Both the position numbers and the translations under genes were made by a program. The notes under the pieces were generated by a model. The model was not told the DNA's origin. It was given only the letters and a program-made list of their open reading frames with translations, and ran no database searches. From Candidatus Komeilibacteria bacterium CG11_big_fil_rev_8_21_14_0_20_36_20 (GTDB taxonomy: Bacteria; Patescibacteriota; Patescibacteriia; UBA1558; GWA2-36-10), in the NCBI GenBank assembly GCA_002787405.1, contig PCWQ01000006.1, forward strand, positions 1 through 52,139: a stretch of DNA of 52,139 bases, given 5' to 3'. Positions 8,142-19,427 of the stretch are shown one piece after another. Numbering within the stretch: position 1 is the first letter of the stretch; every line of letters starts with the position of its first letter.

Positions 8142-9521
8142 ATGACCTTAGCTACTTTAATTTTGTTGTTGGTTTTTACCATCAATACCTGCCTTTTGAT
8201 TTTTATTATTGTCCATCCTCATAAGCAATTACGCTGGCAGATATTTTTGATGGTTTTTTTAATTTCTTTGTGGCAAGGTGCCAGATTAATCAATAGTACT
8301 ATAGTCGGTAATGACCTTCATTTGCTAGCCGGAATGAGACTTGGTTTAATGCCGGCTTTATTTTTACCCGCCGCTTTTACTTGGTTGGCTTTTTCTTTGC
8401 TCAATAAATGGTCTGGTTTTAGCTGGTGGAAAAAATTTGCTTTTTGGCTGGCGCCGATTGTTATGTCTCTTTTTATTTTTACCGATTATAATTTACAAAG
8501 AGTACTTGTTCAGGATGGACAGATTTGGTATATACCAGGCGCTTTGTACTGGTGGTTTGCTATTTATTTTCTTTTGTCAATTTTTTATGATTTATATATT
8601 CTGGTAGTTTATCGTAAAAATTATAATACTATTATTAGGCGGCAGATTGATTATATTTTTGTGGGTGCAGCCTTAGCCGGGCTGTTTGGTCTGCTCTTTA
8701 GCGCTATTTTACCGATTTTTGGTGTTCATAATTATTATTTTTTAGGTTTAAACGGCGCTCTTTTATTTACTATTATTTTAACTTACTCTTTATTTAGGTA
8801 CAGATTTTTTGATCTAAAAATATCATTTTATACCATTATTATTGATAGCTTAAGGTTGTTTATCTTAGGTATTATTTATTATATTTTATGTTTGGCGCTA
8901 CATAACATAGCGCGGATTGATTTTTCTGTTACTGGAAATTTAGTGGTCTTACTAGTCTTTATGGGTTTGAGCATCCCTTTTGTTTTTAAATTGATAAATT
9001 TTGTTATCAGATCGTTATTAATTGATCCAACTAACGATTTAAAGACCGCTGAAGATAATATTGCCAGCGTTCTGCGCTCCAGTCAGGATTTTCAATTTTT
9101 GTTTTCTGCTTTAGCTAAAGAGATTAGCCGCATTGTGGATTATCGGGAAATATTTGTTTATTTATCCAAGCGCAACAAGCCGGAAAATTTTTACCAGGTT
9201 TTTCCGGTGGGAGAGAGGTTGATCAGCATTAAAAATAGCCATTTACTAAAGTTTTTAAAGGAGAACAAAAAAATAGCTAATGCTGCGGAAATAGATTATT
9301 TAGGGTTTAACAAATTATTGACCAAAGAATTAAAAGATCGTCAGATTGATCTGGTCCTGCCCATTTTTTATGACCAACAGCTTTTGGGTGTGATGATTAT
9401 TAACAACAACCAGAAACTATTATCTATTCAGCAGTTGAATTTTTTGGAGCAGGTTAATAAATATTTAGATATTGCTGTCGGCAGCCTGCTATTACATCAG
9501 CAGTGTTTGGCTGGTAAGTAA
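8142..9521 (+). CDS. Orphan 7TM sensor with GAF-like domain, no kinase
   Basis: The 459-residue protein has seven N-terminal helices (about residues 1-220) that match the 7TM sensor half of CPR histidine kinases; compare the 936-residue kinase at 16617. Further helices run to about residue 290, and a GAF-like domain covers about 305-450 (FSALAKEISRIVDYREIFVYL...LVLPIFYDQQLLGVMIIN). It then stops: there is no H-box, N-box or ATP-binding G boxes. It could be a decoy or accessory sensor, or a kinase that lost its catalytic half. The stop precedes toxin debris by only about 25 bases, so truncation by rearrangement is plausible. Confidence 0.75.
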   Translation: MTLATLILLLVFTINTCLLIFIIVHPHKQLRWQIFLMVFLISLWQGARLINSTIVGNDLHLLAGMRLGLMPALFLPAAFTWLAFSLLNKWSGFSWWKKFAFWLAPIVMSLFIFTDYNLQRVLVQDGQIWYIPGALYWWFAIYFLLSIFYDLYILVVYRKNYNTIIRRQIDYIFVGAALAGLFGLLFSAILPIFGVHNYYFLGLNGALLFTIILTYSLFRYRFFDLKISFYTIIIDSLRLFILGIIYYILCLALHNIARIDFSVTGNLVVLLVFMGLSIPFVFKLINFVIRSLLIDPTNDLKTAEDNIASVLRSSQDFQFLFSALAKEISRIVDYREIFVYLSKRNKPENFYQVFPVGERLISIKNSHLLKFLKENKKIANAAEIDYLGFNKLLTKELKDRQIDLVLPIFYDQQLLGVMIINNNQKLLSIQQLNFLEQVNKYLDIAVGSLLLHQQCLAGK

Positions 9522-9546
9522 TTTTAATTTTCTTTAAATCAAAATT

Positions 9547-9983
9547 ATGAAAAGCGAAAAATTAAAAATTAGCTCTTTAATAATCTTATCATCATTACTT
9601 CCCTTCTCCACTCTTGCTTCTCCTTCTACTTCCATTCTAGAGCCATTAAGTACCCAATCAACCAAGTATGTGGATAAATATTTTGAAATTGATGAGTAAG
9701 GTAACACTAAAATGTATATTTATCTGGGAGATCAGATTATTGCGACCTTATTCGTTATGATGCTCCAGGAAATATTAATTATGGTTATGTAGCTAAATCA
9801 CTTGGCTTACCTAATTGGATGATTCAGGGAGGAGCTCGAACAGAACAAGTAGCATCGGATGTATCAAAATTAAATAGGCCATCATTTTCGGATAATAGCG
9901 GCGATTCAAGGTATATTCAAATGGGAATAAACTCTTATAGCCCAGATAGGTCTTGGTGGCAAAAAGCACTTGATTGGTTTTAG
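9547..9983 (+). pseudogene. Decayed mini-RHS toxin gene with Ntox44-like C-terminus
   Basis: An ATG at 9547 begins a signal peptide (SSLLPFSTLASPS) and then SILEPLSTQSTKYVDKYFEIDE before TAA at 9697-9699. Reading past it gives GNTKMYIYLGDQIIAT, as in the second copy at 14285. At about 9747 the sequence breaks and another frame (9750-9983) encodes IRYDAPGNINYGYVAKSLGL..., continuing to YIQMGINSYS. This resembles the bacterial toxin 44 domain (PF15607): NIHYGYVG... followed by a ...GIDLY segment. The RHS core between the two is deleted. So this is a toxin gene with a nonsense codon, an internal deletion and a frame change. The family call is from memory of the motifs. Confidence 0.7.
9608..9746 (+). 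repeat. 139-bp direct repeat, copy 1
   Basis: This segment matches 14340-14478 with six differences by eye over 139 bases and no gaps. It covers the signal-peptide end and the start of the RHS-like region. The two copies flank about 4.6 kb containing six intact genes. Confidence 0.9.
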
Positions 9984-9994
9984 ATAACAATATT

Positions 9995-10273
9995 ATGAAT
10001 AAGAAAACTAAAAAAACATTAATTATTATTAGCTTTATTATAGTAATTTTAGTTGTCGCTTGGTGGGTAGGATATTTTTATAAAAGTAGTAACACCCAGT
10101 ATGGTTTATGCCATAAAGCTGATAACACAGGTTGGGCTCCAGCTTTTGGTCATATTGGATGTGATGGGGAGAAATTAAGTAATAATTCTCCATTAATTGA
10201 AGATGGGTATGCTTGTTATTGTCATACGCCAGATACATGTTGGAATGGTGAAAAATGTGTTGAGTTAGAATAG
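9995..10273 (+). CDS. Small membrane-anchored Cys-rich protein
   Basis: The protein has 92 residues. I chose the ATG at 9995 rather than 9974 because MNKKTKK leads directly into one membrane helix (residues 8-30), and 9974 overlaps the end of the toxin fragment. The exported part has six Cys (GLCHK, IGCDG, ACYCH, DTCWNGEKC), probably disulfide-bonded. I do not recognise the family. It sits 11 bases after the Ntox44-like fragment, where an immunity protein normally lies, but the cytoplasmic target of such a toxin fits poorly with an exported Cys-rich domain. Confidence 0.6.
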   Translation: MNKKTKKTLIIISFIIVILVVAWWVGYFYKSSNTQYGLCHKADNTGWAPAFGHIGCDGEKLSNNSPLIEDGYACYCHTPDTCWNGEKCVELE

Positions 10274-10337
10274 TCAAAATCTTATAATATTACCTTTAAA
10301 TTTATTAAGTAAGATTATATTAATTTAAATCAAAATT

Positions 10338-11015
10338 ATGAGTATCCAAAATCTAGTTTTACTGATAGCTGGAGTCATTAATCTGATTATGAGTTTTATT
10401 GTGTTTAATCGAGGCGTAAAGAATAATAAAATAAATCGGTATTTTAGTTTACTTACTTTTTTCACTTTTTTGTGGGGTGTGGGGTTGATTTTATTCAACT
10501 ACGGAATTAGCATAGAATTATCAAGATTTTTTGCCAGTTTTATTTATCCAGTGGCTTTGATGATTCTAGTCAGCGTATTTTATTTGACCGTTTATTTCCC
10601 ATATAAATCATTTGAAGTCTCTACATTATATAAAATTTTAGTTATTATTTTTTCTTTATTTTTTACTATATTTTGTTTATGGGGATATAAGATTTTTGTG
10701 CCAGAGGCTGCAATATTACCAGTAGTCAGCGTGGTCTATGAACCTTGGAGCTATTTATTATACACGATTATTCTCATAACTTTAATGTTGGCATCAATTA
10801 TAATTTTGTTTTCAAAATTTTTCAAAGCGGAGAAACCATTTAAATTGTCGTTAAAATTAACTTTAATAGCTATTATTATGGGGTCAGTGGCTGGTAGTTA
10901 TTTTAATTTATTTTTGATGTATTTTAATCATAATAATTATAATCATTTAGGCCCCTTATTCACTCTTTTGATGAATGGCTCTGTTTTTTATCTTATATTT
11001 TTATCTAAAAAATAA
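10338..11015 (+). CDS. Stand-alone 7TM sensor domain, paralog 1
   Basis: The 225-residue protein has seven membrane helices. It aligns with the first ~220 residues of the kinase at 16617 and with its tandem neighbour. Shared marks are a 'NRYFSLLTFFTFLWG' helix, 'YFPYK', 'GSYFNLFL' and the ending GPLFTLLMNGSVFYLIFLSK. It stops just where complete kinases continue into the linker and GAF domains. It has no catalytic part. Base composition is very AT-rich. The next gene starts at the base after its stop. Confidence 0.75.
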   Translation: MSIQNLVLLIAGVINLIMSFIVFNRGVKNNKINRYFSLLTFFTFLWGVGLILFNYGISIELSRFFASFIYPVALMILVSVFYLTVYFPYKSFEVSTLYKILVIIFSLFFTIFCLWGYKIFVPEAAILPVVSVVYEPWSYLLYTIILITLMLASIIILFSKFFKAEKPFKLSLKLTLIAIIMGSVAGSYFNLFLMYFNHNNYNHLGPLFTLLMNGSVFYLIFLSKK

Positions 11016-11027
11016 ATGATTCATTTT

Positions 11028-11708
11028 ATGGCCATCCAGAATTTTATTTTATTAATAACTGGCATTTTGAATTTTTCAATGAGTGTTTTCATTATTTCCC
11101 GCGGCTGGAAGAATAAAATCAATTTATATTTCAGCTTATTGACTTTTTTCACTTTTTTGTGGAGTTTGACACTATTTATATCCAGAATAATACCTAGCGA
11201 TCTACTAGCTGTATTTTTCTATCGCAGCACTTATATGTCAGCAGTTGGTATTGCTGTGTTTTTATTATATTTTTCTTTATATTTTCCATATAAGATAAAA
11301 GATGTTAGTTTTTTAATTAAATTTTCGATTTGGTTACCAACCATCATTATTGTTATTTTAATATATACTCAATGGCACATTATAGATTTTAATAGAAGTA
11401 TTGATTTATTGGAATGGAATGTTAGTTATTATGTTCCTTTTCATATAGTCTATGGTTTATATTTTTTTGTGGCTGTTATCTCTGCTTTTTTGCATTTAGT
11501 TTACAAATATCGTCGTTCAGAAAATATTTTTAAAAAACAAATAAAGGTTTTTCTAAGCATGATTGCTATTAGTTTTGTCTGCGGCTCTTATTTTAATTTA
11601 ATTCTGTGTTACTTTGGCAGTTGGCATTATATTTGGCTGGGTCCCTTATTCACTCTTTTGATGAACGGTTCAGTGTTTTATTTAATTTTTTTGTCTAAAG
11701 ACAGATAA
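11028..11708 (+). CDS. Stand-alone 7TM sensor domain, paralog 2
   Basis: The protein has about 226 residues if started at the ATG at 11028, which aligns MAIQNFILL with MSIQNLVLL of its neighbour; an in-frame ATG at 11016 would add four residues. Seven membrane helices are visible. The proteins share 'YFSLLTFFTFLW' and an identical GPLFTLLMNGSVFYLIFLSK ending, while their loops differ strongly. The DNA of the last ~60 bases is much more similar than the middle. This suggests a conserved junction with divergent sensing parts. No kinase domain follows; an asparaginase-like gene does, 13 bases later. Confidence 0.72.
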   Translation: MAIQNFILLITGILNFSMSVFIISRGWKNKINLYFSLLTFFTFLWSLTLFISRIIPSDLLAVFFYRSTYMSAVGIAVFLLYFSLYFPYKIKDVSFLIKFSIWLPTIIIVILIYTQWHIIDFNRSIDLLEWNVSYYVPFHIVYGLYFFVAVISAFLHLVYKYRRSENIFKKQIKVFLSMIAISFVCGSYFNLILCYFGSWHYIWLGPLFTLLMNGSVFYLIFLSKDR

Positions 11709-11721
11709 GCCCTTGATAACT

Positions 11722-12708
11722 ATGGCTAAGAAAAAGAAGAAAATTTTTTTATTATTGGCTGGCGGCACTTGTCTGACTGACAAAGAGGGCCGGATTTTTA
11801 GCGTGCAATCAGCGCAAGATATTGGCCACTGGCTAAAACAAATGCCGGAATTGGAAATCTTGAGCAATCTGCAGCCGCTGTTTATTAGCGGTGAAGATGA
11901 ATTGGTCACGGCCGCGGTCTGGGAAAAAATGGTGCAGGCCATTACTGACAATTTTATGGAAGCCGACGGATTTGTAATAGTCAGTAAAATAGATAATTTA
12001 CTTTATACGGGCGCGGCTTTGAGTTTTCTCTTGCAGAATTTTCAGAAAACCGTTATTCTAACCAGTTCCCAGATTAGCGGCACCAGTTTTGTGGATAAGA
12101 AAGCGGTGATTGAAGAGTTGAGAAATAAGCAAGGTGGCTTGGGTTTAAGGGCTAATATTATCAATGCTTTGCAAATTGCCGATCGTCCTTTGCCTAGTCC
12201 GGCTATTATGTTTGGCCAGCGCCTGATTTCCGCCATCAAGGCCCTGCCGGATCAGCAAAATCAGTTAAATTTATTGGCCAGCGCCGACGGCAATTATTGG
12301 GGCAAAGTAGATTTTGGCGTTAATCTTAAATCCGGTCTTTATTTTTCTCCACATCAGCCCGATATTTATAAAAAAATAAAAGCCGATATTTTTATTCTAG
12401 AAGACTGGCCGGGTACGCCGTGGATGCTTACTAAAGATAATTTAGTTAAATATCATGGCTTATTTATCAAAGCCAGTCCTTATCAGCCGTTGGAAAAAAC
12501 CAAACAGGGACAGATCGCTAAGTGGAAATTACCAACAGTTATTTATAACCGTCAGTCAGTCCGACCCATCAAGGGAGCAGTAGCGATTTCCGGTTGTACT
12601 CCTTATGTCGCTCTAACCAAAACCATGTGGGCTTTAGCCAATGCCGGCGAACTGGCTGATTTTACTAGCATTATGCAAAGAAATTTGATTGGAGAATTTA
12701 ATAACTAA
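11722..12708 (+). CDS. Asparaginase-like protein, probably inactive
   Basis: The protein has 328 residues from the ATG at 11722; the 11713 start adds only MIT. The N-terminal strand and loop FLLLAGGTCL match the asparaginase TGGTIA loop, whose Thr is kept. The second catalytic motif HGTDT is replaced by a VSKIDN segment. Later landmarks are weakly kept (TSSQISGTSF, PFVxLPG absent, KGAVAISGCTPYVAL near the end). So the fold is likely but asparagine hydrolysis is doubtful. It ends 13 bases before a deoxyribosyltransferase-like gene; the two probably form a unit. Composition is more GC-rich than the 7TM genes upstream, like housekeeping genes here. Confidence 0.7.
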   Translation: MAKKKKKIFLLLAGGTCLTDKEGRIFSVQSAQDIGHWLKQMPELEILSNLQPLFISGEDELVTAAVWEKMVQAITDNFMEADGFVIVSKIDNLLYTGAALSFLLQNFQKTVILTSSQISGTSFVDKKAVIEELRNKQGGLGLRANIINALQIADRPLPSPAIMFGQRLISAIKALPDQQNQLNLLASADGNYWGKVDFGVNLKSGLYFSPHQPDIYKKIKADIFILEDWPGTPWMLTKDNLVKYHGLFIKASPYQPLEKTKQGQIAKWKLPTVIYNRQSVRPIKGAVAISGCTPYVALTKTMWALANAGELADFTSIMQRNLIGEFNN

Positions 12709-12721
12709 AATTTTAATATAT

Positions 12722-13288
12722 ATGAAAGTTTATTTCTATAGTAACAACCCGGCCGAAGCCAAAGAAAATAAAGAAATCATTCGTTATCTTAAAAGAGCGG
12801 GAGTAACCGTGGGCAGTAATTTGTCCGGTCAAACTGAAATGAAGAATAAATTGGATGCCTTGATTGTTCAGGGTAAGAAATTGGATGCCAAAGCCAGCTA
12901 TCTTATGGCTTTAACTTTATCGCAGGGCAAAGACGTTCTTTGTCTTTTACCTAAAGGCGTTAAAGCTGATGAAGCTTTGAGTGGTTTGCAAAGTGACGAT
13001 AATTTTGGTCAGAAGCTACATCTTAAATTTTATCAGCCAGATGGTTTGTTAGATCAGGTGATTAGTTTTATCAAAAGTCTGGATCAGGACAGTTTGCGTG
13101 ATCTGGCCAATATTAAATATACTCTGCGTCTTTCCAGCAAAATTTCTGATTATTTGAACTGGAAAGCTAAGATAAAAAAAATGCGAAAAGCCGACTGGCT
13201 ACGCCAGCAGATTAATCAAATTATGGATAATGATACTCAATATAAAAAGTTTTTGGAGGATAAATTTGATATTGTTGAAGATAAATAG
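12722..13288 (+). CDS. Nucleoside deoxyribosyltransferase/TIR-like Rossmann protein
   Basis: The protein has 188 residues from ATG 12722; the 12689 start overlaps the previous gene without need. Residues 1-115 look like a small Rossmannoid domain of the deoxyribosyltransferase/TIR-like type: MKVYFYSNNPAE at the start, a central LDALIVQGKKLDAKASYLMALTLSQGKDVLCLLP strand-helix-strand typical of 'GxxLD.G...E...A...GKPV'. The catalytic Glu of that helix appears as Lys/Ala/Ser. The C-terminal 70 residues are basic and helical (YLNWKAKIKKMRKADWLRQQINQIM), perhaps DNA- or RNA-binding. Function unknown. Confidence 0.5.
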   Translation: MKVYFYSNNPAEAKENKEIIRYLKRAGVTVGSNLSGQTEMKNKLDALIVQGKKLDAKASYLMALTLSQGKDVLCLLPKGVKADEALSGLQSDDNFGQKLHLKFYQPDGLLDQVISFIKSLDQDSLRDLANIKYTLRLSSKISDYLNWKAKIKKMRKADWLRQQINQIMDNDTQYKKFLEDKFDIVEDK

Positions 13289-13347: not shown

Positions 13348-14148
13348 ATGACCACTAATGAATGGAGGAAAAAATTTCAGGATTTGCCGTCAGTCCAGAG
13401 AAAAGCGCAACCTTTTAGTATTCGAGCCAAATCGGATAATAATACTTTAGCCATTTTAATCCATGGTTTTACCAGTTCTTCTTATGAAATGAGTTCTCTG
13501 GCGGATTTTTTAGCCGAGCAGGGCATTGATGTGGAGACCGTTTTAGTGGCCGGACACGGGAGGACTCTTGATGATTTAGCCAGCTCCACTGTGGAAGATT
13601 GGCTCTCTTCCCTTAATGATGTTATTGAGCGTAACCAGAATTATAAATATATTTTTATTGTTGGTTATTCCTTTGGCGCTAATTTGGCTATTCATACAGC
13701 CATTGATAATCCTAAAATAACAGGTGTGGTTTCTTTGGGTCTACCGGTTTTTTTAAAGAATAATCTTTTGATACGTTTGGTTTGTCCTTTTTTTAGATTG
13801 TTTAATTTGACTTATCGCAAACACTGGGTTAGTCGGGAAAAAGCTGAAATTTTAGCCGAGCAGGGTTGTCATTCTAATATTCCGATTAAAGGTTTCCTTC
13901 AATTTAATAGATTGCTGGAGCAATATACTAAAAAGAACGTTAATAGATTTAATAAACCCATTTTAATCATTCATTCCCGCGGTGACGTTATTTCTCATGT
14001 GCGCAGTTCAGAGTGGCTGTTTAGGAATATCAAATCTCAAGACAAACATTTTTTTATTTTGGATAAATACCAGCATAGCTTGATTGACAACACCCGTCGG
14101 GATTTTGTTTATGCCAAAACAGCCAGTTTTATTTTAGAGCATAGGTAA
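13348..14148 (+). CDS. Alpha/beta hydrolase, carboxylesterase/monoglyceride lipase-like
   Basis: The 266-residue protein has the oxyanion-hole motif HGFTSSS (about residue 39) and the nucleophile elbow GYSFGA (Ser about 110). The acid is in SRGDVIS (about 212) and the His in YQHSLID (about 243). These match the Est30/monoacylglycerol-lipase group that cleaves short- to medium-chain esters. There is no signal peptide, so it is cytoplasmic. It has a clear ribosome site and no close partner. The true substrate is unknown. Confidence 0.85.
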   Translation: MTTNEWRKKFQDLPSVQRKAQPFSIRAKSDNNTLAILIHGFTSSSYEMSSLADFLAEQGIDVETVLVAGHGRTLDDLASSTVEDWLSSLNDVIERNQNYKYIFIVGYSFGANLAIHTAIDNPKITGVVSLGLPVFLKNNLLIRLVCPFFRLFNLTYRKHWVSREKAEILAEQGCHSNIPIKGFLQFNRLLEQYTKKNVNRFNKPILIIHSRGDVISHVRSSEWLFRNIKSQDKHFFILDKYQHSLIDNTRRDFVYAKTASFILEHR

Positions 14149-14195
14149 ATAATTGATTATAAAGGGAGTTAATAATAGTCCATTTTTACAGAGCA

Positions 14196-14224
14196 TTGAC
14201 AGGCCCTCTTTTTTTATTTATACT
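14196..14224 (+). promoter_or_regulatory. Near-consensus promoter before the second mini-RHS gene
   Basis: TTGACA and TATACT are 17 bases apart and 61 bases before the ATG at 14285. The promoter is better than most in the window although the gene is broken, which suggests recent decay. Confidence 0.7.
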
Positions 14225-14284
14225 AAAAATATAAATGACGACGGCTATAAAAAGAAAGACGGCTTAATAAATTAATATAATTCT

Positions 14285-15435
14285 ATGAAGAAAAGTGCAA
14301 CTATAATTTCTCTTATTTTAACGCTATTTTTTCCTCTAGCCACTCTTGCTTCTCCTTCTATTTCCATTCTAGAGCCATTAAGTCCCCAATCAACCAAGTA
14401 TGTGGATAAATATTTTTAAATTGATGAGCAAGGTAACACTAAAGTGTATATTTATCTGGGAGATCAGATTATTGCAACAGTCAATACTCCCAAACCAGAT
14501 TCCTCTTCTTTAACCCCTAATAATCAAGAAACTATTAATTATATTCTTCCAGATCACTTAAGTTCTACCAGTATTATTACTGATGAATAAGGAGAAATAG
14601 TGGAAATAAATGATTATAAACCATACGGAAATCCTAATTATAGTCAAACAATCATAGATAATACATACAAATTCACTGGACAGGAGTATGACGAAGAAAA
14701 CGCACTTCAGTACTATGGAAACCATGGCAGGTATCCGAAATCTTAGACACGCTTTCTATGATATAATAAAGATTTACATAGCACATTAGTCAACCCTCAA
14801 AAATTGAATAGTTATAGTTATGTTATAAATAATCCAGTTAAATATGTTGACACGGATGGTGCAACTGAATGGTGGGCTTTATTTTTGCCAGGAACTTACT
14901 CTCAATTAAGTTTTTGGGGTGGAGTTAGTAGTGCACTAAACGCAACAGGAAATAATATTGCATCAAGTTTTTTGAGTCACTCAATTTCAGTGGAGCCAGG
15001 CAACATGATAATAAATAAAAGAAACGATAAAACGGAGTAATCGATGCAATAAAAAATTCGTCTGATTATAAAAGTTATATTGGAAATGTAATAGATAAAT
15101 TTGAGTCATTCAGGAACACATCATTTGATATAATTAGGGATAACACAGTGGACAATGTTTCATCCATAGAGTTTAGCTCAGGTGATTTAGCAAAGGCTTT
15201 CCATGGTACTTACAATACTCATATTAGTGGGCAGAAGAACGATAGTGGATCGTGGGATGTTGAAGTTAATGTTATTGATTATTATGATTTTAAATGGGGG
15301 ACAACATATCAAGATGAATATCAAAATAATCTATCAATATTAAATTTAGGGGCTAAATCAGTTACAGTAAGTCAATCACAAGGAGTGGTATCTAATTATT
15401 TTATTGATGTATCTTTTTCTGATACTATTAAATAG
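14285..15435 (+). pseudogene. Decayed mini-RHS toxin gene with unassigned C-terminal domain
   Basis: From ATG 14285 a signal peptide (LILTLFFPLATLAS) is followed by SILEPLSPQSTKYVDKYF, then TAA where copy 1 has Glu. The frame continues through IDEQGNTKVYIYLGDQIIAT, YILPDHLSSTSIITDE, another TAA, EINDYKPYGNP and the RHS core KFTGQEYDEENALQYYG. After frame changes it resumes as LVNPQKLNSYSYVINNPVKYVDTDG (ORF 14804-15040). One more frameshift near 15035 leads to a beta-rich C-terminal domain ending at 15435 (HGTYNTHISGQ..., YYDFKWGT). So a short secreted protein with one RHS core and a swapped C-terminal toxin has at least two stops and several frameshifts. The toxin type is not recognised. Confidence 0.75.
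14340..14478 (+). repeat. 139-bp direct repeat, copy 2
   Basis: It matches 9608-9746 with six substitutions by eye. Each copy has a nonsense codon that the other lacks: copy 1 has TAA where this copy has CAA, and this copy has TAA where copy 1 has GAA. Confidence 0.9.
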
Positions 15436-15481
15436 ATTATTTATAGGACAAAAAATAAATTTTTATTGGTTAGTGGAATAA

Positions 15482-15689
15482 TATGTAGACAAGATACCCC
15501 AGTATATTAAAATTAATCTAGATACAGGAAACGTTAAGTTATTTGTAGATATTGATGATGTACTTAACATCGATAAAGAAATATTTAATTCTTTAGGTTG
15601 CAAAGTATGTAATTTTCTTTAGTACTAGTTTCGATGATATTAAAGGATATTATTCTGATACAGAAAAATGGGAAGATGATTATCGTTAA
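15482..15689 (+). pseudogene. Possible immunity-gene remnant
   Basis: Two short open segments in different frames follow the toxin end: one from 15482 to 15622 (YVDKIPQYIKINLDTGNVKL, then FVDIDDVLN...), and one from 15627 to 15689 (SFDDIKGYYSDTEKWEDDYR). Together they look like one acidic protein of about 65-70 residues broken by a frameshift and lacking a start. Acidic small proteins directly after RHS toxins are commonly immunity proteins; this assignment is positional only. Confidence 0.35.
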
Positions 15690-15753
15690 TTACAGAAATA
15701 ATTATCCACCTTCTTTAATATAGGCGTAAGCCCCTGCGGATTACTTCTTATAG

Positions 15754-15805
15754 ACACCATATTATATTTCTCACTTTTATGGTGATTTTATCAAAAATAT
15801 GGTGT
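15754..15805 (+). terminator. Inverted repeat, possible terminator
   Basis: A perfect 10-bp inverted repeat ACACCATATT / AATATGGTGT with a 32-base spacer is followed by TTTTTAG. The long loop makes efficiency uncertain. The rest of 15690-15876 has no gene that I can see. Confidence 0.4.
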
Positions 15806-15876
15806 TTTTAGTCAGGTTATGATAAAATAGAAGTGTATTTTGGTTTAAAGATAAGGATTAAAAGTTATATTTTTAT

Positions 15877-16620
15877 ATGATTAGTGAAGACGATATAAAA
15901 TTTTGGGGGCCCAAATATGGATCTATATATCCATATTTGGAGACGTCTACTCCATATAATAATTTAATTGACGATATTTTTTCATTCCTAGACTTTAATA
16001 AAGAGGATGTTATTTTAGATTGTGGTGCTGGTTCAGGTTTAATTATCAAGAGAATTTTAGAGGAGTTTGATTTTATCAAGCATATAGATGCTTTAGATGT
16101 GAGTAAAGTCATGTTAAGTCATTTAAAAAACAAATTAAAGTTTTTTGATAATAAAATAACCAGTAAAGTAAATTTAGTGCAACATGATTTGTCTTATCCA
16201 CTACCTTTTAAAGATAATGTATATGATAAGATTATTTCTAATTTAGTTTTAACTTATATAATCTCATATGAAGGAAAGTTTGGCGAAGATGTTCTTGCAG
16301 GTGTTTTATCAGAGATGTATAGAGTATTAAAGAAAAATGGCGTTATAGTATGGACGACGCCTATAAATAATGTAAAATTTGTAAAAGTTTTTTTAGCTTC
16401 TTGGAGGAATATATTAAATTTAAAATATTATAAGAGGTTATATTATGGGCCATTAATTTTAGGTCACGCATTGACTATTCAAAAGAAAGGTAAAGAAGGT
16501 GTTTATCATTTTTATAATAAAGATCGAATTGAAAATATTTTATTGAGATGTGGGTTTACCGATATTCAATTTAAAAGATCTTTTGCGAAACAAGCTTGGG
16601 TTATAAATTGTAAAAAATGA
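15877..16620 (+). CDS. SAM-dependent methyltransferase (class I)
   Basis: The 247-residue protein has motif I VILDCGAGSGLII (about residues 46-58), an acidic DALDVSK strand-2 motif, a motif around NLVQHDLSYPLPFKDNVYDKIISN and a post-II VLKKNGVIVWTTP strand. This is a typical methyltransferase_11/25 core. The substrate is unknown; small molecules or lipids are usual. The N-terminal 40 residues (FWGPKYGSIYPYLETSTPYN) are probably the substrate lid. The stop overlaps the start of the histidine kinase (ATGA), so the two are translationally coupled. Codon use is strongly AT-rich, like the 5' third of the kinase. Confidence 0.85.
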   Translation: MISEDDIKFWGPKYGSIYPYLETSTPYNNLIDDIFSFLDFNKEDVILDCGAGSGLIIKRILEEFDFIKHIDALDVSKVMLSHLKNKLKFFDNKITSKVNLVQHDLSYPLPFKDNVYDKIISNLVLTYIISYEGKFGEDVLAGVLSEMYRVLKKNGVIVWTTPINNVKFVKVFLASWRNILNLKYYKRLYYGPLILGHALTIQKKGKEGVYHFYNKDRIENILLRCGFTDIQFKRSFAKQAWVINCKK

Positions 16621-19427
16621 GCACAAATATTACACACCTTTTATTAATCTTAATATCTCTTTTAAACTTATTTTTGAGTTTTTTAGTTTGGATCAAAAAT
16701 AAAAAATCTCCATCTAATATTTGGTATAGCATGGTAGTATTAGGAGGTTCTTTGTGGGCGTTTGGTCTATTTGGGTTTTTATATGTTGATAGTTTAACAG
16801 TAGCTTTAAATTGGGCTCGTTTTTATTATATTGTAGCCGCTATTATAGCTTATTGTTTTTTACATTTTGCTATATATTTTCCGTTTAAAATACATAGTGA
16901 CACTAACATATTAAAGATATTAACTCTTGCGCCAGTGATTATTATTATCTATTTTCTTTTTTTTACAGATTTACATTTAAGTAAAATATCACTAGTAGAT
17001 TGGGGTAAGGATGTAACTCTAGGAAAGGCTTATATTTTTTATGTAGCATATTTTACAGTTTATATTATCATTTCATTTGTTATATGGTCTAAAAAATATA
17101 AAATAGCTGATAAGATAGATCGTCTAAGATTGAAATATGTTTTTATAGGCACAGGAACAACTTTAATATTTGGTTCTTTTTTTAATTTATTTTTACCCAT
17201 ATTTAATTATAGGTATGTTTGGGTAGGACCATTTTTTACAATATTGATGATTGGTTTTATCTTCTACGCCATTGTTCGTTACCGCCTCATGAACATCCGT
17301 GTTATTATTGCTCGTAGTATTCTTTATGCTATTTTGGTCGGTACTGTATCTAGCGCTTTTGCTTTATCAGTCGTAGTAGTTGGTAATTTGATTGGCGGCA
17401 ATACCAGAACCAGCAAGATGATTACCTTTATTATTGACGCTATTATTGTGGTTTTGTTTTTGGATCCGGTTAAACGTACTTGGGCTAGGGTCACGGATCG
17501 TATTTTTTATAAGGATAAGATAGATTATCAGCTGGTTTTGCAGGAAGTCAGCCAGATTTTAGCCAGGGAAATTGATTTGCAAAAACTTTTGCCCAAGACG
17601 GCCGCTCTTTTGACTGAAAAAATAAAAATAAAAAGTATCTCTGTTCTGGCACCGATTGGTAATAAGTTTGTGCCCATTGTTGAAGATGATGATCATAGCA
17701 ATAAACAATATCAGCCCAGTGAAAATTTTATTAACTATGTTCAAAACCATCAAGGTATTATGATTGTGGAAGAGTTAATACGCCTGCAGGACTCGTTAGA
17801 TCATAAAAGTTTGAGATATCGGGAACTGGATGGGTTTATTAAAGAAGCCGAGTCTTGGAAAATTGAAATGGTGGTGCCGGTCAGTGAAGAAGGGGATTTA
17901 ACAGCTGTTTTTCTCTGTTCAACTAAAAGCTCAGGCGATTTATACAGCCAGGATGATATTAACTTCTTTAAGGTTTTAGCCCCTCAGGTTTCCAATGCTA
18001 TTGAAAAATCAGAATTATACGAGGAAGTAGAGGAATTTAACCGAGAATTACAGGCCAAGGTGGAAGCCCGCACCAAGAGCTTGCAGGAGGTCAACATGGC
18101 TTTGGAGGAACGAAACAAATTTTTGACTACCATGCAGGTGGTGATTAATATGGTCAGCCGCACCATGGATTTAAAGAAAATAACTCAGATGATTGCCGAC
18201 AGCATCGCTAATGAATTGGGTTATGTCGGTGGCATTTTAAGTTTTGTGGATTTTGATAAAAAAGTGTTGCTAGTTGGCGCTATTACCCAGAATAAAATGA
18301 CGATTGAGGCCCTGGGTTTGCTTCAGAAAAAAGTCTGGGAATATAATACTCCTTTACAGGAGGATTATAATTTGGCGACCCAAACTGTTCTGTCCGGCAA
18401 AATAAATTTTTCCGACAGAATGTCCGATTTTCTCTCGCCGCCAGTGGAAAAGGAGAGTATTGATAAAATTCAGAAGAAATTAGGAATTCAGACCGTCGTG
18501 GGCGTGCCGATTTTTTCGGAAAATAAAATTATCGGTATTATTCGTTTTCTGTTAGCGGTTAAGCGGGATAAAATTTTTTCTTTGGATATTGAAACTATGA
18601 CCGCTTTAACCAACGAAGTCGGCATTGTTTGGCGTAATTTGCGTTTATACGAAAATCTTCAGAAAGCCAATCGAGATATGCAGGAAGCCAATATTCACTT
18701 GCGGGCTTTGGACAAGGCCAAATCCGAGTTTTTATCCATTGCTTCCCATCAATTGCGCACGCCAATTTCAGCGATCAAGGGCTATTTGGCGATGATGCTG
18801 GATGGTGATTTCGGCAAAGTAAGTCCGAAAATTAAAAATGTGCTCAAGGATTTATTTGAAAGTTCGGCTCGTTTAGCTCGTCTGATTAATGTCTTTTTGA
18901 ATGTTTCTCGCATTGAATCAGGACGTTTCAAATTAGATAAAAAGCCGATTCAAATTAATGATTTGATTGAGAGCGTCATTATTGAGTTAAAAAATCAGGC
19001 CATCAAGAAAGAGTTGAAATTAACCTATCATCAGCCGGTTAAAAAGATTCCGTTAGTTTTTGCTGACAGCGACAAACTGCGGGAAGTCATTCTTAATTTA
19101 GTGGATAACGCCATCAAATATACTCTGAAGGGTTCTATTGATATCTATATTAAACACGACAAACATGAATTAAGTTTTATATCCAAAGATACTGGTATTG
19201 GAATTGACCCGAGTGAGGGTAGAACTTTATTTAGAAAATTTGTGCGGGGCACTGGCGTTGCCCAAATTCATACTGGTGGTTCGGGTTTAGGTTTGTTTAT
19301 TGCGCAAAAAATTATTAAAGAGCACGGCGGCCGGATTTGGGCTGAGAGTAAAGGCAAAGAAAAAGGTAGTGTTTTCCGTTTTGTCATTCCTTTGTACGAC
19401 GGCCAGGATAAACGAGTTGAAAAATAA
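16617..19427 (+). CDS. Hybrid 7TM sensor histidine kinase with two GAF domains
   Basis: The protein has 936 residues. A 7TM sensor occupies about 1-225 and more helices run to 290. GAF1 spans about 315-465 and a coiled coil about 470-510 (EEVEEFNRELQAKVEARTKS). GAF2 spans about 515-680. The HisKA H-box is FLSIASHQLRTP (His about 711), the N-box LREVILNLVDNAIKYT (Asn about 827), G1 DTGIGID (Asp about 858) and G2 GGSGLGLFIA. All catalytic boxes are intact. It phosphorylates itself at His and passes the phosphate to a response regulator, none of which is nearby. The first ~645 bases are much more AT-rich than the rest, with the change near 17,260. Confidence 0.93.
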   Translation: MSTNITHLLLILISLLNLFLSFLVWIKNKKSPSNIWYSMVVLGGSLWAFGLFGFLYVDSLTVALNWARFYYIVAAIIAYCFLHFAIYFPFKIHSDTNILKILTLAPVIIIIYFLFFTDLHLSKISLVDWGKDVTLGKAYIFYVAYFTVYIIISFVIWSKKYKIADKIDRLRLKYVFIGTGTTLIFGSFFNLFLPIFNYRYVWVGPFFTILMIGFIFYAIVRYRLMNIRVIIARSILYAILVGTVSSAFALSVVVVGNLIGGNTRTSKMITFIIDAIIVVLFLDPVKRTWARVTDRIFYKDKIDYQLVLQEVSQILAREIDLQKLLPKTAALLTEKIKIKSISVLAPIGNKFVPIVEDDDHSNKQYQPSENFINYVQNHQGIMIVEELIRLQDSLDHKSLRYRELDGFIKEAESWKIEMVVPVSEEGDLTAVFLCSTKSSGDLYSQDDINFFKVLAPQVSNAIEKSELYEEVEEFNRELQAKVEARTKSLQEVNMALEERNKFLTTMQVVINMVSRTMDLKKITQMIADSIANELGYVGGILSFVDFDKKVLLVGAITQNKMTIEALGLLQKKVWEYNTPLQEDYNLATQTVLSGKINFSDRMSDFLSPPVEKESIDKIQKKLGIQTVVGVPIFSENKIIGIIRFLLAVKRDKIFSLDIETMTALTNEVGIVWRNLRLYENLQKANRDMQEANIHLRALDKAKSEFLSIASHQLRTPISAIKGYLAMMLDGDFGKVSPKIKNVLKDLFESSARLARLINVFLNVSRIESGRFKLDKKPIQINDLIESVIIELKNQAIKKELKLTYHQPVKKIPLVFADSDKLREVILNLVDNAIKYTLKGSIDIYIKHDKHELSFISKDTGIGIDPSEGRTLFRKFVRGTGVAQIHTGGSGLGLFIAQKIIKEHGGRIWAESKGKEKGSVFRFVIPLYDGQDKRVEK

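Follow-up and report, generated by a model that had tools for sequence, protein, structure and literature searches.

Here we describe a sensor histidine kinase gene and its surroundings on contig PCWQ01000006.1 of the patescibacterium Candidatus Komeilibacteria bacterium CG11_big_fil_rev_8_21_14_0_20_36_20; the window is the whole stretch of DNA analysed, PCWQ01000006.1:1-52,139 (52,139 nucleotides), which forms contig 8 in a genome of 0.98 Mb and to which all coordinates refer. The kinase (936 amino acids, gene 16617-19427) begins with a seven-transmembrane (7TM) sensor and follows directly on a methyltransferase gene, and we propose, with a probability of roughly 0.6, that a cassette of signal-making enzyme and receptor half is exchanged as a unit onto a constant kinase. 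An earlier note on this DNA had described the sensor half as a module exchanged at a conserved junction, which is borne out by the discordant trees, topology tests and cross-family sensor matches given below, and had missed the main point, namely that the exchanged unit comprises the enzyme or enzymes together with the receptor half. The parts concerned are as follows.

15877-16620, plus strand: S-adenosylmethionine-dependent methyltransferase, candidate signal-making enzyme of the cassette (Pfam Methyltransf_11/25; homologues precede 7TM kinases).
16617-17276, plus strand: putatively exchangeable sensor half, kinase residues 1-220 (HisKA_7TM, PF16927), discordant with the remainder of the gene.
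17220-17300, plus strand: junction, GPFFTILM...YAIVRYRLMNIR, with the compositional change point (17,244), the rise in conservation and the resumption of DNA homology to relatives.
17277-19427, plus strand: constant half, with two more hydrophobic segments, GAF domains, HisKA (701-769) and HATPase (817-926) by Pfam, and 56-69% identity within the family.

The end of the methyltransferase gene and the start of the kinase gene overlap by 4 bp (ATGA). The protein belongs to the HisKA_7TM kinases, with the N-terminal 7TM domain (residues 9-227), HisKA and HATPase all above the Pfam cutoffs, and the model of the sensor half shows seven helices, the fourth and fifth of them separated by a beta-hairpin (AlphaFold2, pLDDT 92.7, 39 sequences). 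A sequence search for solved relatives of the sensor half returned none. When the model of 16617-17306 was compared with known structures, a weak seven-helix topology resembling G-protein-coupled receptors was found (best Foldseek E 2.1e-3, TM-score about 0.5-0.67; S1P and LPA receptors among the matches), and because these matches are weak, no homology is claimed.

The composition break within the kinase gene is real. GC content at four-fold degenerate sites (GC4) is 0.12 in residues 1-220 (n=74) and 0.22 in the methyltransferase, as against 0.53 in the rest of the kinase (n=258), in agreement with the earlier description of an AT-rich methyltransferase and kinase start turning GC-richer from about 17,260. 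With the amino-acid effect removed, the change point in synonymous GC falls at residue 209/210 (17,244; permutation p=0.0002), so that the break stands, and it lies at GPFFTILM, a position confirmed to be equivalent to the GPLFTLLM ends of the two kinase-less 7TM genes at 10338-11708. A codon-use artefact of transmembrane segments was rejected as the sole cause, since over the open reading frames (ORFs) of the window GC4 is independent of hydrophobicity (r=-0.02) and the break is therefore not simply a membrane-protein effect. Of 33 related kinases, 29 likewise have a lower GC4 in the sensor half than in the kinase half, standalone 7TM genes being intermediate, and the sensor of G059 that matches the window's own is GC-rich, with a GC4 of 0.84 (labels of the form G059 and L023 denote comparison genomes and loci of this analysis). 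Given that low-GC sensor halves are almost family-wide, AT-richness alone dates no swap; nor is there a close relative by which to date the event, the genome being the single one of its genus, and the word "recent" in the earlier account had to be dropped.

The two halves of the kinase have conflicting histories. A long kinase match is present in 18 of the 21 genomes of the family, with one kinase per genome (one genome was taken per species, and most are metagenome assemblies). In alignments of these sister loci the 3' half is conserved and the 5' half differs: identity is about 50-80% after residue 221 and 16-39% for most pairs before it, and conservation climbs from about 27% (residues 196-210) through 54% (211-225) to 72% (226-240). 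Within a genus, pairs can combine kinases 76-93% identical with sensors 18-24% identical, and in the same-genus pair G046/G087 the two values are 93% and 18%; for other close relatives the kinase and sensor identities are 79 and 24% (G013/G002), 78 and 22% (G019/G020) and 80 and 38% (G014/G018). Across genera and families, sensors can be closer than the kinases that carry them, at 63 versus 56% in G019/G013, 68 versus 61% in G005/G012, 63 versus 47% in G026/G033, 54 versus 44% in G002/G030 and 46 versus 33% in G015/G076. Separate trees of the sensor and kinase halves contain well-supported conflicting branches. In approximately unbiased (AU) tests, four kinase clades were rejected on the sensor data (p = 2e-95, 2e-72, 9e-14 and 0.002) and three of four sensor clades on the kinase data (2e-10, 1e-54 and 2e-7). 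As judged from these alignments, the AU tests reject a shared history of the two halves. A chimeric assembly is possible for a single case; the junction and the pairs recur in many independent genomes.

Were there no exchange at all, the sensor half would have to diverge very fast in place, with the break reflecting a codon habit of membrane domains, an explanation for which the AT-rich sensors of 29 of the 33 kinases and the intermediate GC of the standalone 7TM genes can be adduced. We consider it very improbable in view of the sensors of distant genomes that resemble each other more than their kinases do, the AU tests, the G046/G087 pair and the clean DNA borders with unrelated genes between them described below. 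For the family as a whole, fast in-place divergence is rejected by the discordant sensor matches.

These borders are best seen in the same-genus trio G019, G007 and G020, in which DNA homology spans the gene of a FadD-like acyl-CoA ligase (present in 17 of the 21 family genomes) to the end of that gene, vanishes, and returns within the kinase gene between +633 and +687, the range in which residue 221 falls. On the ligase side, G019 and G020 are about 79% (79-81%) identical up to the ligase stop codon, pairs with G007 being 73% identical; on the kinase side they are 77% identical from +663, with no homology between the ligase stop and that point. Homology between G046 and G087 resumes at +741/+633 at 88%, only about 1 kb upstream of G046 being available. 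The ligase tracks the kinase (86 and 78% in G019/G020), and the enzymes between the borders track the sensor: in G019/G013 the flavoprotein, transglutaminase-like and DFP proteins (60, 61 and 62%) go with the sensor (63%), as against 52% for the ligase and 57% for the kinase. On this pattern of homology, the interval from the ligase stop to about kinase codon 221 is a replaceable cassette.

The window's own pair of methyltransferase and sensor recurs elsewhere. Among 381 genomes of the class, the nearest sensors are those of G059 and G098, which belong to another family (40-41% identity; kinases of about 725 amino acids), and the gene directly upstream of each encodes a methyltransferase 44-48% identical to the window's, compared with 22-29% for other cassette methyltransferases; a FWGPKYGSIYP stretch is common to all three enzymes. 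Homologues of the window methyltransferase number five in the 381 genomes, the window's included, and all five lie directly upstream of a 7TM kinase, that of G022 being cut by the contig end. The AT-rich methyltransferase moves with the sensor half; the AT-richness of both had been pointed out in the earlier note. A gene of the signal-synthase type adjoins the receptor kinase directly, which in the window is the methyltransferase; because the two genes overlap by 4 bp there is no ORF between them, and no peptide-precursor gene of the agr/ComQXP type stands between maker and receptor in the window.

In other genomes the same slot is filled by other enzymes, assigned by Pfam and NCBIfam: a PlsC acyltransferase with a HAD-IB phosphatase, or PlsC with DUF362; a BioF/Kbl/CqsA-like pyridoxal-phosphate-dependent synthase with or without an ADC-like protein; a FeeM/LuxI-like acyltransferase with ThiF; a flavoprotein with transglutaminase-like and DFP proteins; several kinds of methyltransferase; KAS III; acyl-ACP-reductase-like proteins; and a FabA-like protein with a methyltransferase. 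Several of these fall into families of signal synthases (Autoind_synth above cutoff, FeeM, TIGR03694, BioF/CqsA-like and KAS III). Of five FeeM+ThiF cassettes tested, four (L023, L134, L142 and L144), none of which is the window's, exceed the Autoind_synth (PF00765) cutoff of 24 bits, and on these four proteins FeeM/Acetyltransf_5 outscores it. The nearest solved structure to the FeeM/LuxI-like acyltransferase is a coumaroyl-homoserine-lactone synthase (E=0.003), and in one cassette the FeeM-like enzyme scores above the cutoff of TIGR03694.

The enzymes in the slot follow the sensor and not the kinase. The enzyme family is shared with the nearest-sensor neighbour in 28 of 34 cases and with the nearest-kinase neighbour in 8 of 34, the latter being the chance level; in partial Mantel tests, sensor and enzyme remain associated given the kinase (r=0.40, p=0.0002), and kinase and enzyme given the sensor do not (0.05, not significant). 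In a wider set of 65 sensors from several Patescibacteria groups, 49 share an enzyme family with the nearest sensor (permutation mean 7, maximum 21). Between families, and between kinases of 550-940 amino acids, enzyme and sensor remain paired at 30-50% identity, and several kinases with the same pairs differ so much in architecture (about 520-760 amino acids) that the pairs must persist beyond one kinase family. As in systems of the agr/ComQXP type, the receptor N-half and the maker genes are polymorphic and co-vary, and the kinase C-half is conserved.

One could suppose that enzymes and sensor travel together merely by adjacency, without a functional link, recombination tracts happening to span both; contiguity and the enzyme sets found with two sensor lineages speak for this. 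We hold it to be improbable, given that the borders fall where a gene ends on the left and where the sensor domain ends on the right, that the same pairs persist between families and between kinases of such different lengths at 30-50% identity, and that every one of the five homologues of the window methyltransferase adjoins a 7TM kinase.

We therefore propose that the stretch from the methyltransferase gene to about kinase codon 220 may be one allele of an exchangeable cassette, consisting of one or more signal-making enzymes and the 7TM receptor half that would read their product, and that recombination would fuse this cassette onto the constant output half of the kinase. The enzymes would make a small signal, probably acyl-derived or methylated; the 7TM half would bind it, and the constant half would relay its state to a response regulator. 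Joint replacement of enzyme and receptor half could then change the signal without rewiring the output, much like a change of pherotype in ComQXP or agr, except that here the entire signal chemistry would be replaced. The genome encodes three receiver proteins over the Pfam cutoff, all elsewhere and none adjoining the kinase, and receiver-like ORFs lie directly downstream of some related kinases. The competence gene ComEC was found in the genome, which is compatible with DNA uptake. Across the Patescibacteria we lean slightly towards a broader statement, that one kinase locus is a common socket for unrelated signal chemistries in the form of synthase and receptor-half cassettes, allowing a change of language in one recombination step with the same output.

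Several points weigh against this proposal. The FadD-like ligase, a possible acyl source, is absent from the window's genome, where an eroded stretch (14149-15876) takes its place. Pairing is not strictly one-to-one, for in G379 and G022 the methyltransferase precedes a sensor of another lineage and the flavoprotein/transglutaminase-like/DFP enzymes are paired with two sensor lineages, and physical linkage by itself would be able to make enzyme and sensor co-travel within a transferred block. One of the eight AU tests, that of the {G005,G012} sensor clade on the kinase data, was not significant (p=0.15); the groups tested were named after the trees had been viewed, and the enzyme labels were assigned by the analyst from searches, not blind. 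We know of no quorum-sensing precedent for flavoprotein/DFP/transglutaminase, DUF362, HAD or ThiF. What the data show is the composition break, the conflicting trees, the borders, the association of enzyme with sensor and the recurrence of the window's own pair in other families; production of the ligand by these enzymes, signalling between cells and the recombination route are what we infer.

Patescibacteria are regarded as dependent on lipids from outside, and this counts in favour of a different account in which the swap is real and the enzymes are modifiers of lipids or the envelope, or scavengers of host lipids, whose product the 7TM half monitors for homeostasis, with no intercellular signal. 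Three of the enzymes, the FadD-like ligase, the PlsC acyltransferase and the HAD phosphatase, are commonplace in lipid metabolism, and no exporter genes were seen in the cassettes. We regard this account as unlikely, though not negligible: LuxI/FeeM-like, BioF/CqsA-like and KAS III enzymes, which occupy the same slot, come from families known for diffusible signals, and repeated replacement of a whole chemistry is hard to explain by homeostasis. Moreover, kinases of the Candidate Phyla Radiation (CPR) beside CqsA, LuxI and PpyS homologues have already been read as complete quorum-sensing systems (PMC7567580).

Upstream of the cassette the window holds the following further features.

14149-15876, no strand assigned: eroded stretch without an intact gene; most relatives have the FadD-like acyl-CoA ligase here as the left border of the cassette (from ORFs and the borders of relatives).
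13348-14148, plus strand: alpha/beta hydrolase, conserved left-flank gene (Pfam Hydrolase_4), in the same place in several relatives.
11016-11708, plus strand: second standalone 7TM protein (PF16927), conserved neighbour and no donor cassette, 53% identical to a standalone gene of G016.
10338-11015, plus strand: standalone 7TM protein (PF16927), conserved neighbour and no donor cassette, 61% identical to a standalone gene of G011.
8142-9521, plus strand: 459-amino-acid protein with a 7TM domain (PF16927) and a longer C-terminal part, conserved at the locus, 46% identical to its G016 counterpart within the 7TM domain.

The eroded stretch contains several short broken reading frames and one motif that by eye resembles the end of an Rhs core (NSYSYVINNPVKYVDTDG); a Pfam search of the two longest remnant pieces, at 14.8-15.4 kb, gave no match. 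Several families keep, upstream of the kinase, the gene set found here at 8142-13288, which encodes a 7TM-GAF-like protein, an asparaginase-like protein, a protein of about 190 amino acids and from one to several standalone 7TM proteins.

The two standalone 7TM genes had been thought of as stored donor cassettes, which would make them silent donors for gene conversion into the kinase in the manner of pilS or vls, and their common GPLFTLLM end position and their location 5-6 kb upstream of the kinase invite this idea. It is scarcely credible, and we count it as refuted: for 33 of 35 standalone 7TM genes the best match is a standalone gene of another genome, those in the window being 61% and 53% identical to such genes and about 30% to the window sensor, with which their longest DNA match is about 40 bp. 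Donor copies nearly identical to the expressed gene, as silent cassettes would provide, were not found among them; compared with the sensor encoded in the same genome, most standalone 7TM genes reach 21-31% identity. By these comparisons they are vertically inherited, conserved neighbours.

Some observations on other cassettes may be added. The wider kinase search over genome contigs listed mostly remoter kinases; among the matches listed, nitroreductase-like and ThiF-like genes with large ORFs lie directly upstream of 7TM kinases in the Patescibacteria contigs L069 (5592-9117), L074 and L086, whose sensors are mutually 29-42% identical, and L060, a contig assigned to Lysobacteraceae, has a 7TM kinase of the Patescibacteria type together with a methyltransferase+FeeM cassette and is probably misbinned. 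The BioF-like gene of G017 (L044:3861-5017) is broken into two frames, 47% and 44% identical to intact homologues, through a frameshift, decay or an assembly error. In G068 (L130:9633-11630) an acyltransferase and a HAD phosphatase are fused (437 amino acids) and followed by a second HAD gene, and the cassette of G020 alone holds a 532-amino-acid protein (L038:5061-6656) with no Pfam or NCBIfam match, an enzyme candidate.

If the proposal is true, maker and receptor would form a "language" replaceable as one piece with the output kept, and pherotype-like switching would extend from peptides within a species to signals that are probably small molecules, across genera and families. For the ultra-small and mostly uncultured Patescibacteria, a conserved kinase with cassettes offers matched pairs from which to approach what they sense and tell hosts or kin, as the enzyme neighbouring each sensor nominates a ligand class. 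Ligand discovery, swapping of receptor halves and the evolution of specificity would become directly testable with laboratory strains, and the cassettes may serve as natural designs for modular biosensors.

Among known systems, maker and receptor co-vary in the agr groups of staphylococci. In ComQXPA of Bacillus (PMC4408185), the maker genes and the receptor kinase co-vary among relatives and trees of maker and core genes conflict. The present locus resembles both in that maker genes and receptor vary together with conflicting trees; it differs in that those systems use peptide signals with one varying chemistry, whereas here the alternatives are unrelated enzyme families and distant 7TM lineages, substituting for one another across genera and families. 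In Ralstonia, the PhcB methyltransferase makes 3-OH PAME/MAME, a hydroxy-fatty-acid methyl ester sensed by the histidine kinase PhcS (PMC8578825); the likeness to the window is one of gene layout, with methyltransferase and sensor kinase genes in one operon. The PEP-CTERM/exosortase-associated acyltransferase family TIGR03694 is shared with the FeeM-like enzyme of one cassette, and the cassette of the window is without this enzyme. Searches of the literature, mainly outside subscription papers, turned up no account in which entire signal chemistries take each other's place at one orthologous kinase with a break inside the gene. A close parallel is that of Bernard et al. 2020 (PMC7567580), who predicted quorum-sensing systems in CPR genomes from CqsA-, LuxI- and PpyS-like genes beside membrane sensory kinases. 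Signal-synthase homologues adjoin membrane sensory kinases in both cases; there, in the sections consulted, adjacency is given family by family, whereas here the chemistries appear as alternative alleles at one orthologous kinase. Relative to those sections, the present comparison adds the exchange inside the kinase gene and the methyltransferase, PlsC+HAD, flavoprotein and ThiF types.

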